Below are positions 61,097 to 64,000 of a stretch of DNA of 64,000 nt, in pieces. The translations under genes and the position numbers were made by a program. The notes beneath the pieces were generated by a model, which saw only the letters and a program-made list of their open reading frames with translations, was not told the origin of the DNA and did no database searches. Position 1 is the first letter of the stretch. Each line of letters opens with the position of its first letter. The DNA is taken from the NCBI RefSeq assembly GCF_000376845.1, contig NZ_AQXY01000028.1, positions 248,001-312,000 on the forward strand. Reading direction: 5' to 3'. Origin of the DNA: Thioalkalivibrio sp. ALE14 (GTDB lineage Bacteria > Pseudomonadota > Gammaproteobacteria > Ectothiorhodospirales > Ectothiorhodospiraceae).

Positions 61097-61558
61097 ATGC
61101 CCGTCCCCGAGATTGACCTGAAGATCCTCGACCCGCGCATGGGTTCGGACTTCCCGCTGCCCGCACCGGCCACGGATGGCTCGGCCGGCGTGGATCTGCG
61201 CGCCATGATCGAACAGCCACTGACGCTGGAACCCGGCGCTGCGGAACTGATCCCGACCGGACTGTCCATCCACATCGAGGACCCGGGCTATGCCGGGATG
61301 ATCCTCCCGCGCTCGGGCCTGGGCCACAAGCACGGCCTGGTGCTGGGCAACCTGGTCGGCCTGATCGACGCCGACTACCAGGGGCCGCTGATGGTCTCCT
61401 GCTGGAACCGGGGCACCAACGCCTACACCCTGGAGGTCGGCGAACGCCTGGCGCAGCTGGTCATCGTCCCGGTCGCCCAACCGAAATTCCGCGTCGTCGA
61501 GGACTTCGAGGCGACCGCCCGCGGCGCGGGCGGCTTCGGCTCCTCGGGCCGGGGCTGA
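61097..61558 (+). CDS. dut: dUTP diphosphatase
   Basis: 153 residues, trimeric dUTPase. Five motifs: [36 protein letters not shown] (Asp), [19 protein letters not shown] and the C-terminal arm [12 protein letters not shown]. Hydrolyses dUTP to dUMP, preventing uracil incorporation. Confidence 0.97.
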
Positions 61559-61564
61559 CGGAGG

Positions 61565-62218
61565 TCACGTCCCGGCCGGGGCCTGCTCGGCAACCGATCG
61601 GGAGGGGGTGACAGCCTCTCGCCTGGAGGGCTGCGCCGGGCCGGTATTGGCGCTCCGTCGACGCGGCGGCCCCAGCAGCAGCAACGCCAGGATTGCCGCA
61701 AGGCTGAGCGCGCCCAGCCCGAGCATCACGTTGCCCAGAAGCTGCTGCTCGCCCAGCAGGTAGGCATTGCACAGCCGGTCCGGGGCCTCGCGGTAGAGCC
61801 AGCCCATCACGAAGAACATCGCCGTAGCCTTGACCCACAGCACCCCGCGCACCAGCAACGGCAGCCGGTGCGCCACCAGCCCCAGCGGCATGCCCGCCAG
61901 CAGGACCAACGTCGCAATCTTGGCCCAACCGGCCCCGGCCTCGAGCACGGCCGCATCCAGGTTGCGGGGCAGCAGCCAGTAGACCACGACGAACAACGCC
62001 AGCAGCAGGCCCAGTACGCCGTACGCATCCAGGCGGCCCGCCCGGAGGCGCCAGACCTCCGGCAGTGACCGGGCGATCAGCACGCCGGCCAGCACCAGCA
62101 ACGGGATCTGCACCAGCATATGGCCGATCAGGCTGGCCTCCAGCCACGGCCGCAGCGGCGGCAGGACCAGTACCACCAGCAGGGCCGGCCCCGCCCAGAC
62201 GGCGGACCGCCGCATCAC
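61565..62218 (-). CDS. six-helix membrane protein following SCO ('orf1'-like)
   Basis: 217 residues, about six transmembrane helices (ALLVVLVLPPLRPWLEASLI, HMLVQIPLLVLAGVLIARSL, VLGLLLALFVVVYWLLP and so on), with conserved-looking His and Cys inside membrane segments (GHMLVQIP; LCNAYLLGEQQLLGN), ending in a basic, disordered tail. It overlaps the SCO gene by four bases and so works with the oxidase cluster. No known domain recognised; the position matches orf1 of the norSY-senC-orf1 clusters. Confidence 0.65.
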   Translation of the reverse strand: MMRRSAVWAGPALLVVLVLPPLRPWLEASLIGHMLVQIPLLVLAGVLIARSLPEVWRLRAGRLDAYGVLGLLLALFVVVYWLLPRNLDAAVLEAGAGWAKIATLVLLAGMPLGLVAHRLPLLVRGVLWVKATAMFFVMGWLYREAPDRLCNAYLLGEQQLLGNVMLGLGALSLAAILALLLLGPPRRRSANTGPAQPSRREAVTPSRSVAEQAPAGT

Positions 62219-62826
62219 CAGCGTGGCTCCAGGTAGGCCAGCACGTCGTCCACCGCATCGATGTCGTGAATCGCGGCGACGCGCGCATCCGGCTCGACCA
62301 CGTAGATGGCCCCGTTGTGCACGAAGTCCTCGCCGTCCGGGATCACCACCACCTGGAAATGATTCAGCAGGCGATCCAGATCCTCGCGGCTGTGCGGACG
62401 CGCGAGATACCAGACCTCGGGGTTGGCCGAGAAACGCTCGCCGTACTCGCGCAGGCGCTCGGCATTATCGTTCTCGAGGTCAAAGGTGATACTGAGCAGG
62501 GCCACGCGCTCGCCCAGTACCGCCTCCGGCAGCGCCTCCTGGATCCGGTGAAAGCTCGCGCCCAGCGTCGTGCAGGCGTGGTGGCAGCCGGTGTAGATGA
62601 AGTCCAGCACCACATAGCGATCCCCCAGCTCGGCCAGGTCCAGCTCCCCGCCTCGCGCATCCTCCAGCGTCATCGCGGGGATCGGTTCGGGATTCTCGCG
62701 GGCAGCAACACGGCGCGCCTCCTCCGCGGTGAAGGCGCGATAACCGTCGGTGGCCAGGGCCAGGGTGGTGAACCCACCCAGGCCCAGGGCGATGATCGTC
62801 AGCCCGTAGACCGCGTTACGCCACAT
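62215..62826 (-). CDS. senC: SCO1/SenC copper chaperone
   Basis: 203 residues. N-terminal anchor (VYGLTIIALGLGGFTTLALA), thioredoxin-like SCO domain: FIYTGCHHACTTLGASFHRI (C81 and C85) and the distant His in DGEDFVHNGAIYVVEPD, giving the full Cu-binding set. Delivers copper to the CuA or CuB site. It overlaps the oxidase gene by 11 bp. Confidence 0.93.
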   Translation of the reverse strand: MWRNAVYGLTIIALGLGGFTTLALATDGYRAFTAEEARRVAARENPEPIPAMTLEDARGGELDLAELGDRYVVLDFIYTGCHHACTTLGASFHRIQEALPEAVLGERVALLSITFDLENDNAERLREYGERFSANPEVWYLARPHSREDLDRLLNHFQVVVIPDGEDFVHNGAIYVVEPDARVAAIHDIDAVDDVLAYLEPRW

Positions 62827-64000
62827 TGTTCGCCACCCGCTTCAGTCCGGCGAAGAACCGCAGGGCCAGCAGCAGCGTGCCGAGGATCACCAGGGCCGCG
62901 GCGACCGAACCCAGCTGGGCATAGGTCGCCCATTCGGGCAGGTGCTCGGCAAAGCGGCGCGGAACGCTGCCAGCCCCGCTGTACAGGAACACCGCCACCA
63001 GCGCGAGACCGCCGCCAGTGAAGGTCCAGAACCCCAGCCGGTCGAAGAAGCCGTCGCCCTGCGCCTGCGAGCGGGTCAGCCACGCCATGAAGCCGAACGT
63101 CATCGCGACCACGCCCAGCAGCAGATAGAAGTGGAAGTGGCCCGGCACCCAGAGGGTGTTGTGCATAACCGTATTCACCGCGATGGTCGCGTCGATGATC
63201 GCCGGGATCACGCCCGCGGCCCAGCCAAACACGCCGAGGAAGGCGAACCCGGAGGCAATGTCCCAGCGAATGCCCGAGCGGTAGACGTTGGTCAGCGCGC
63301 CCCAGGCGGTGACCAGCAGCACCGGCAGCCCGCTGGTGTAGGAAATCACCTGCCCCAGCACGTGCAGCGAGGTCGGCTGCGAGAAGTCCATCAGCAGATG
63401 GTGCGGATAGACGATCAGCACCATCACGGTGGAGGCGGCCCAGGCCGCGAGGAACACGCGCGAGACCTTCCACGGACGACCGGTGTAACGCGGCAGGATC
63501 TCGTAGACCGCGATCACCGCCATGTAGATGGTGGCGTTAATGAACACGTGGCCGAAGAAATAGATCAGGTTCTTGGCCCACAACGCGTCGAGCTCGAAAC
63601 CCGGCTGATAGAGGTTGATCAGGCTCATGGTCAGGATCGCGGCACCCGCGACAATCCCGAGGGTGTTCACGATCAGCACCATGGTGCTGGCGACCACCGC
63701 CGCCGGCGGCGGATCACCGGCCCGTCCGAACAGCTGGGGCAGCCCCAGGGAGCGGCCCAGCCCGCCGCAGTTCGTGATCAACGCGCGGGCGATATCGATG
63801 TACAGGAGCAGGAAGCCCACCCCGATCGCCAGCAGCCCGAGGAAGAACGACGCGGCCGCGGCCTGGGTCCACAGCCCCATCGGGGTCTGCGGCAGCGGGT
63901 ACAGGAAAGTCCAGGCCCCGGCGAACCCGCCAATAAAGATCCCGCCCAGGATCAGCACCGCGCCCAGCAGGAACAGGGCGAGATTGAGCAGGAATACGCC
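62816..64000 (-). CDS. heme-copper oxidase subunit I homologue, N-terminus outside window (NorY-like)
   Basis: The frame is open to the right edge; about 395 residues are visible. CuB ligands: His in YFFGHVFINATIYMAV (helix VI) and VYPHHLLMDF (two His); heme ligands: WVPGHFHFYLLL (His on both sides of Phe). At the +4 position after the helix VI His, where O2 reductases have the cross-linked Tyr, this reads Asn (63536-63538), and the motif is GHVFIN rather than GHPEVY. Together with the downstream SCO and membrane gene it resembles the norSY-senC-orf1 type of NO reductase cluster. Family placement is sure; NO reductase function is inference. Confidence 0.8.
   Translation of the reverse strand, partial: GVFLLNLALFLLGAVLILGGIFIGGFAGAWTFLYPLPQTPMGLWTQAAAASFFLGLLAIGVGFLLLYIDIARALITNCGGLGRSLGLPQLFGRAGDPPPAAVVASTMVLIVNTLGIVAGAAILTMSLINLYQPGFELDALWAKNLIYFFGHVFINATIYMAVIAVYEILPRYTGRPWKVSRVFLAAWAASTVMVLIVYPHHLLMDFSQPTSLHVLGQVISYTSGLPVLLVTAWGALTNVYRSGIRWDIASGFAFLGVFGWAAGVIPAIIDATIAVNTVMHNTLWVPGHFHFYLLLGVVAMTFGFMAWLTRSQAQGDGFFDRLGFWTFTGGGLALVAVFLYSGAGSVPRRFAEHLPEWATYAQLGSVAAALVILGTLLLALRFFAGLKRVANNVA

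Follow-up and report, generated by a model that had tools for sequence, protein, structure and literature searches.

An sNOR-type operon in Thioalkalivibrio sp. ALE14 shares its chromosomal slot and promoter type with flavohemoglobin, which suggests a role in nitric oxide removal

Bacteria of the genus Thioalkalivibrio oxidise sulfur compounds and are found in soda lakes. In the strain ALE14, whose genome comprises 3.02 Mb in 31 contigs, a heme-copper oxidase gene lies at the right edge of the window, as the stretch of 64,000 nucleotides which was analysed (G000:C28:248001-312000) is called here. A sequence-only reading of this window had pointed out that the gene encodes an asparagine where oxygen reductases have their active site tyrosine, and had proposed that this lithotroph probably has here an NO reductase of the kind encoded by norSY-senC-orf1 clusters. 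The locus raises the question whether the enzyme acts on NO or on O2, and for sNOR the literature on nitrifiers disagrees on which of the two is the cellular substrate (PMC6967387).

The gene norY encodes subunit I of the enzyme, which would carry heme b and the heme b3-CuB site. It is located on the minus strand at positions 62816..64000, where its open frame leaves the window, and extends to 64267 in window numbering (G000:C28:310816-312267; L002:1423-2874), yielding a whole protein of 483 amino acids. Pfam assigned it to COX1 with 167 bits, and NCBIfam gave only weak oxidase matches far under cut-off. For comparison, 97 members were aligned, consisting of ALE14, a set of 80 loci, 15 sequences from further genomes, and one from Ruegeria. 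The six histidines expected as copper and heme ligands (H61, H240, H289, H290, H377, and H379) are kept in 97/97, which extends to all aligned members what had been noticed for the ligands visible in the window. Three of them, the CuB ligands H240, H289, and H290, are found together with Asn244 and Tyr248 in the helix VI-VII stretch (63398..63550, minus strand), and the codons of H377 and H379 at 63131..63139 (minus strand) specify the ligands of the high-spin and the low-spin heme, respectively, the heme assignment being taken from the family. In the helix VI motif, GHVFIN, the codon of H240 occupies 63548-63550 and that of N244 63536-63538. The column of Asn244, which holds tyrosine in three B-type and two A-type references of the same alignment, is asparagine in 96 of the 97 members and masked in the remaining one (L047), so that the missing tyrosine is borne out as well. 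Among three Thioalkalivibrio sequences norY has a dN/dS of 0.04-0.07, indicating purifying selection. Taken together, the kept ligands, the asparagine pattern, the operon described below, and the purifying selection are far beyond chance.

How much these residues say on the substrate was considered next to known enzyme types. According to Table A4 of PMC8756737, the tyrosine position is occupied by Asn in sNOR and CuA-NOR, by Gln in eNOR, by Asp in gNOR, and by Glu in cNOR and qNOR; NorY has asparagine rather than the glutamate by which cNOR and qNOR are recognised. The same table lists 0 complete proton channels for sNOR. A tyrosine supplied by helix VII, as in cbb3 oxidases, was looked for and not found. 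At the position which we take to correspond to the cbb3 tyrosine, five residues before the two-histidine pair, ALE14 has leucine and all 97 members have Leu, Ile, Met, or Val. Another tyrosine, Tyr248 (63524-63526), located a single turn of the helix beyond Asn244, is present in 97/97 sNOR sequences and also in the divergent sequences of L022 and Thermomicrobium roseum. In this column the B-type references have Met or Leu, and those of the A type have Leu. When NorY is compared to the B-type ba3 oxidase, Y237, Y244, and S309 align with N244, V251, and V316, and T312 and Y248 with T320 (97/97) and Y255 (96/97). From a ba3-like K path, two equivalents (T320 and Y255) are thus kept, and those of Y244 and S309 are lost. 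Judging from their spacing rather than from coordinates, H240, N244, Y248, and Y255 would lie on one face of an ideal helix.

Residue chemistry by itself leaves room for an O2 reductase. With the B-type enzymes of Thermus (ba3), Aquifex, and Haloarcula it shares the fold, the six histidines, the CuA subunit, and the two K-path residues that are kept. It might be a high-affinity terminal oxidase of the B type, tolerant to NO and working without the cross-linked tyrosine, for which the two K-path residues and the CuA subunit and SenC protein, as oxidases have them, would speak. Such a function has been put forward for the sNOR of Nitrosomonas europaea, which is raised under O2 limitation and was read by the authors as a high-affinity oxidase (PMC6967387). 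In contrast to the B-type O2 reductases, however, NorY has lost the tyrosine and two K-path equivalents and has gained Tyr248, and the absence of the tyrosine from 96 of the 97 members speaks against this explanation.

The sequence-only reading had further compared the gene order to norSY-senC-orf1 and had called for a NorS-like subunit II with CuA ligands beyond the window edge. Such a gene is indeed present. The operon norS-norY-senC-orf1 runs on the minus strand and is bordered by dut and argB. The gene norS (about 64274-64792 in window numbering, minus strand) was read as a frame of 196 amino acids with a complete CuA ligand set and two hydrophobic segments; since this frame would contain the promoter, translation probably begins at codon 25, which follows AAAAGGGAG, and this gives a protein of 172 amino acids. 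NorS of ALE14 has the ligand set H, C, C, H, and M of CuA, and the set is found in 83/83 aligned NorS sequences. Downstream of norY follow senC (62215..62826, minus strand), a copper chaperone of the SCO1/SenC type (PF02630, 46.7 bits), and orf1 (61565..62218, minus strand), a membrane protein with six hydrophobic segments and no Pfam match. Among the 80 sNOR loci, senC was found beside norY in 77 and an orf1 match in 79; the complete order norS-norY-senC-orf1 occurs in 76, three loci lacking a senC match and one an orf1 match. The product of orf1 is perhaps an assembly factor. Its assignment to CtaG was tried and stayed a guess, as Pfam gave no match for the ALE14 protein and matched one of 13 relatives at an E value of 0.15, and hhalign gave a probability of 0.8%. 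Only 6 bases separate orf1 from dut (61097..61558, plus strand), which forms one border of the slot in the comparison of 21 genomes described below. The other border, argB, is located outside the window, as is the norS promoter.

Among named organisms, the closest relatives of NorY, with 95% identity, are found in Thioalkalivibrio thiocyanoxidans ARh2 and Thioalkalivibrio sp. ALJ21. At an E value of 1e-10, matches occur in 15 of the 369 genomes that made up a class sample and in 15 of the 398 in a phylum sample, ALE14 being counted in both. They fall into an upper set with at least 54% identity (13 in the class and six in the phylum sample, ALE14 included) and a lower set with about 25% identity (one and nine, respectively) whose motif, HPEVY or HPAVY, resembles that of O2 reductases; a single match with 37% identity and asparagine (L022) stands between both. 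Together with a locus on a Thermomicrobium roseum plasmid (L119, 3339-7133), L022 represents divergent sNOR-like genes with 37-38% identity, Asn, and Tyr248. On the T. roseum plasmid, a gene for a formate/nitrite channel (FNT) and a cytochrome oxidase assembly gene directly follow the sNOR-like genes. In a gammaproteobacterial metagenome-assembled genome, norY (L102:4001-5425) is interrupted by a stop codon at about residue 408 and is either a pseudogene or affected by a sequencing error.

A tree of 111 rows, which was of a quick type with long branches and was computed without bNOR, eNOR, and gNOR rows, placed 94 sNOR rows in one group with an SH-aLRT support of 98. Eleven A-type rows (support 100) and three B-type rows (97) group separately, and the one cbb3 row forms a very long branch. 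In this tree norY of ALE14 groups with two Thioalkalivibrio rows, and the sNOR clade, to which norY-type sequences from Nitrosospira, Nitrosomonas, and Nitrococcus also belong, is separate from the O2 reductases of types A, B, and C that the tree contained. Within these rows, the phylogenetic check proposed earlier puts norY with sNOR and outside the O2 reductases, and the separate clade argues against the oxidase explanation. The clusters of ammonia oxidisers for which norSY-senC-orf1 is named in print (Nitrosomonas and Nitrosospira; NE0683-86 and Nmul_A2667-64, PMC4940428) have the same gene order, asparagine, and CuA subunit; the sequences of Nitrosospira multiformis and Nitrosomonas communis are 56-58% identical to NorY of ALE14 and belong to one clade with it. 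By sequence, the ALE14 enzyme is an sNOR. It is not a new enzyme type, as sNOR has already been named and classed (Table A4 of PMC8756737; PMC4940428). The earlier suggestion of an under-described route of NO reduction in a lithotroph is to be qualified in two respects: the family already has a name, and the context presented below favours detoxification over denitrification.

Placement in a neighbouring subfamily was also weighed. The biochemically characterised bNOR, the CuA NO reductase of type I (qCuANOR) of Bacillus, would catalyse the same reaction; the enzyme purified from B. azotoformans also has asparagine for tyrosine, and bNOR comes with a CuA subunit and with genes for SenC and for a six-helix protein. 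Type I is itself likened to the sNOR of N. eutropha in PMC3475470, from which these data are taken. By the same description, however, type I has 13 helices and a CuA subunit with one helix, and type II has 12 and two. A predicted structure of the ALJ21 protein yielded 12 long helices with a mean pLDDT of 87.8, and NorS has two segments. The ALE14 proteins are set apart from bNOR by this description, and in a tree that contained no bNOR sequence they fall into a clade with genera for which norSY-senC-orf1 has been named in publications. We regard bNOR as very improbable here. In helix number NorY, as modelled, and NorS look like the predicted qCuANOR type II of Bacillus and Geobacillus, which by description also shares the asparagine, SenC, and a small membrane protein encoded by a fourth gene, the latter with 4-5 helices (PMC3475470) versus the six segments of ALE14 orf1. 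A fold search matched various kinds of heme-copper oxidase and did not tell them apart.

Evidence on the substrate which is independent of the active site comes from the surroundings of argB, which were surveyed in 21 genomes, two of them (G010 and G035) being uninformative. In ALE14 and in three congeners (G001, G021, G029) the sNOR operon adjoins argB. The slot is empty, with dut next to argB, in G003, G007, G012, G013, G015, G016, G017, G018, and in G033, which belongs to another genus. A frame of about 390 amino acids is located between dut and argB in G002, G004, G009, G011, and G022, and beside argB in G005, where dut is out of view. Two of these frames were scanned and proved to be flavohemoglobins: they score 550 and 566 bits for the model NF009805, which has a cut-off of 432, and they contain globin, FAD, and NAD domains; for one slot frame searched, the best PDB match was a flavohemoprotein. 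At 1e-40 the flavohemoglobin gene hmp, which encodes an NO dioxygenase, occurs in 14 of 144 relatives, 12 of these within the genus, and the same search found none in the ALE14 genome. In G007, hmp is a homologue of 45% identity elsewhere in the genome. In G001, G021, and G029, hmp follows orf1 on the same strand at a distance of about 0.2-0.3 kb. Across the genus the slot may hence contain sNOR, hmp, both, or neither; a mutual exclusion of the two genes is ruled out by the three congeners which carry them side by side.

Not only the slot but also the type of promoter is shared. Before norS and hmp the same layout is found, TTGAC followed by a spacer of differing letters and TATAAAGCTG. The pattern TTGACN{17,19}TATAAAGCTG has 14 matches in 11 of 20 congeneric genomes, four before norS and ten before hmp, and its backward control has 0 in the same 20 genomes; in G024, which has an hmp of 85% identity, the pattern has no match. 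The norS promoter site, TTGACG-N17-TATAAA, was found by species comparison. A sigma-70 scan of the operon, the rule of which demands T at the last -10 position, yielded 0 sites. Directly upstream of the -35 element, before norS as well as hmp, is a palindrome which resembles the NsrR motif gATGyAT-N5-ATrCATc (PMC1274295). When an 18-letter form of the motif is used for scoring, 12 of the 14 promoters have their best site at one common offset, and the scores range from 11 to 16. The norS site of ALE14 scores 15, which is reached by 3/1000 background segments from a pool containing some of these promoters, and it matches 12 of 14 positions of a 14-letter form. The NsrR regulon as described in PMC1274295 shares with norS the hmp-type promoter and the palindrome, here a predicted site; the targets named there include hmp, nnrS, norB, nirK, norVW, and others, and sNOR is not among them in the available text. 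Boxes of the FNR type were also looked for before norS and reached at least 9 of 10 positions in 8/80 regions (control mean 1.35); as six of these were from Aromatoleum and ALE14 had none, they were not taken as general regulation.

A candidate for the regulator is available. An NsrR-like Rrf2 protein of at least 141 bits is encoded in 14 of 20 congeners, ALE14 included, none reaching the NsrR cut-off of 182; the ALE14 protein (G000:C14:17369-17788) has the cysteine pattern C-x4-C-x5-C and 146 bits. Of the 14 genomes with this protein 13 have hmp or sNOR, as compared to 0/6 without it (p 0.0002, for genomes that are hand-picked and related). The exception, G026, has the NsrR-like protein and neither hmp nor sNOR, which counts against the explanation favoured here.

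In other genera the neighbourhoods agree in part. An Rrf2/NsrR-like gene is adjacent in 21/80 sNOR loci. Six Rrf2 proteins were scanned, five from these loci or from further genomes and one from Ruegeria; the best fit was NsrR for five and RirA for the other, with none over the NsrR cut-off. An NsrR-type palindrome with at least 11 of 14 positions precedes norS in 21/78 loci, as compared to 58/1950 random segments, 79/1950 dinucleotide shuffles, and 2 to 8 of 78 with other spacers, and is absent at this threshold from 57/78 norS upstream regions. It occurs in 13 of 21 loci with and 8 of 57 without an adjacent Rrf2 gene, and as many of the 78-80 loci are related, p values overstate their independence. 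Near sNOR, hmp is found in 3/80 loci, two from Thioalkalivibrio and one from Nitrococcus mobilis (clipped by the locus end). Twenty other COX1-family loci, which came from 20 genomes, were picked by score, and included two short ones, had no hmp, Rrf2, or FNT gene.

Several further observations were made in these neighbourhoods. An activator of PAS-sigma54-Fis architecture with clustered cysteines in the PAS part is encoded upstream of norS in 22/80 loci and one further locus (L042, L043, L048, L055, L056, and 18 others), and may be the sNOR regulator where NsrR is absent. An FNT gene is found at most 4 kb away from norY, on either side and in either orientation, in 34/80 loci (L041, L045, L056, L075, L088, L093, L100, L118, and others; a looser clustering, which was set aside, gave 41/80), and also at the sNOR loci of Ruegeria and the T. 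roseum plasmid; the one protein scanned (L056) fit FocA better than NirC, under cut-off. As the ALE14 genome has no FNT gene and only 2/20 further loci outside the 80-locus set have one, FNT was left out of the explanation. In six loci (L069:780-1517 and five others) a small membrane protein near sNOR presumably belongs to the HPP family, members of which transport nitrite in plants and cyanobacteria. On plasmid pFER3 of Paracoccus ferrooxidans (L124), an oxidase subunit I with the motif HPEVY is located beside ric and an Rrf2 regulator; such a tyrosine-bearing oxidase in NO-response surroundings somewhat weakens arguments from neighbourhood.

The remainder of the ALE14 genome was searched for other enzymes of O2 and NO metabolism. 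COX1 matched three places: norY, a gene read as the ccoN of a cbb3 oxidase, with ccoO- and ccoP-like frames following it, and a match of 23.7 bits below cut-off. The latter (L003, G000:C31:253744-256908) is a short COX1-like membrane protein beside frames read as hemerythrin-like, and is perhaps another NO-response cluster. A cNOR or qNOR was not seen among the COX1 matches. With a cbb3 oxidase already available, and with the hmp-type promoter, the slot, and the NsrR-type sites pointing to NO, the terminal oxidase explanation appears unlikely. Whether sNOR might instead belong to a dissimilatory denitrification chain, as its NO-reducing step, has to be judged by the nitrite reductases. In the ALE14 genome, NirK had a best match of 58 bits versus a cut-off of 296 and NirS no match, and this favours detoxification. 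NirK over cut-off or NirS over 400 bits occurs in 6/22 genomes with sNOR, which fits a denitrifying role in some of them, versus 7/34 without (p 0.75; 56 hand-picked genomes, the 22 including the one of 37% identity). Because the co-occurrence is not enriched, and in view of the hmp-type promoter, the denitrification chain was not adopted and is considered a very slim chance for ALE14. The nitrite reductase results also count against the explanation favoured here, as do the score of the ALE14 NsrR-like protein below cut-off, the Rrf2 protein which fits RirA best, and the 57 norS upstream regions devoid of an NsrR-type site.

The sequence, the operon, the tree, and the gene context hence agree on the probable NO reductase proposed at the outset, and the slot, the promoter, and the NsrR evidence favour NO as substrate and detoxification as role; the context supports NO detoxification over O2 respiration. 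According to this explanation, the operon codes for an sNOR, which would be a heme-copper NO reductase with CuA and in which electrons would pass from the periplasmic side to CuA of NorS, to the low-spin heme of NorY, and on to the heme-CuB site. There 2 NO would be reduced to N2O, with Asn244 in place of the tyrosine used by O2 reductases. SenC, and perhaps orf1 too, would serve assembly of the metal sites. The Thioalkalivibrio operon would be driven by the hmp-type promoter under a predicted repression by an NsrR-like Rrf2 protein, from which NO would release it, and sNOR would detoxify NO, in ALE14 in a genome where flavohemoglobin is absent. To this explanation as a whole we assign a probability of roughly 0.8. 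More tentatively, and somewhat short of an even chance, sNOR might regularly belong to the nitrosative-stress regulon of NsrR, the Thioalkalivibrio operon having entered the hmp slot and running from an hmp-type promoter under NsrR control, so that in the ALE14 genome a membrane heme-copper enzyme replaced flavohemoglobin in NO defence, with Tyr248, Tyr255, and Thr320 forming a rewired proton or electron input to a heme-CuB site devoid of tyrosine. A listing of norSY-senC-orf1 under NO detoxification exists already (PMC3764937). In the portions of the literature searched, no mention was met of NsrR control of sNOR, of sNOR in Thioalkalivibrio, or of the regulatory context with its shared hmp slot and promoter.

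Unlike the ammonia oxidisers, ALE14 oxidises sulfur compounds, yielded no NO-forming nitrite reductase in the searches, and has an sNOR which shares slot and promoter with hmp. If the explanation holds, a membrane enzyme converting NO to N2O would serve NO defence in such an organism. The slot, a promoter signature which across the genus occurs only before hmp and norS, and the NsrR-type sites elsewhere provide regulatory evidence for NO that does not depend on the active site residue. With sNOR only, hmp only, both, or neither at a single locus, the question of NO versus O2 is testable within one genus.
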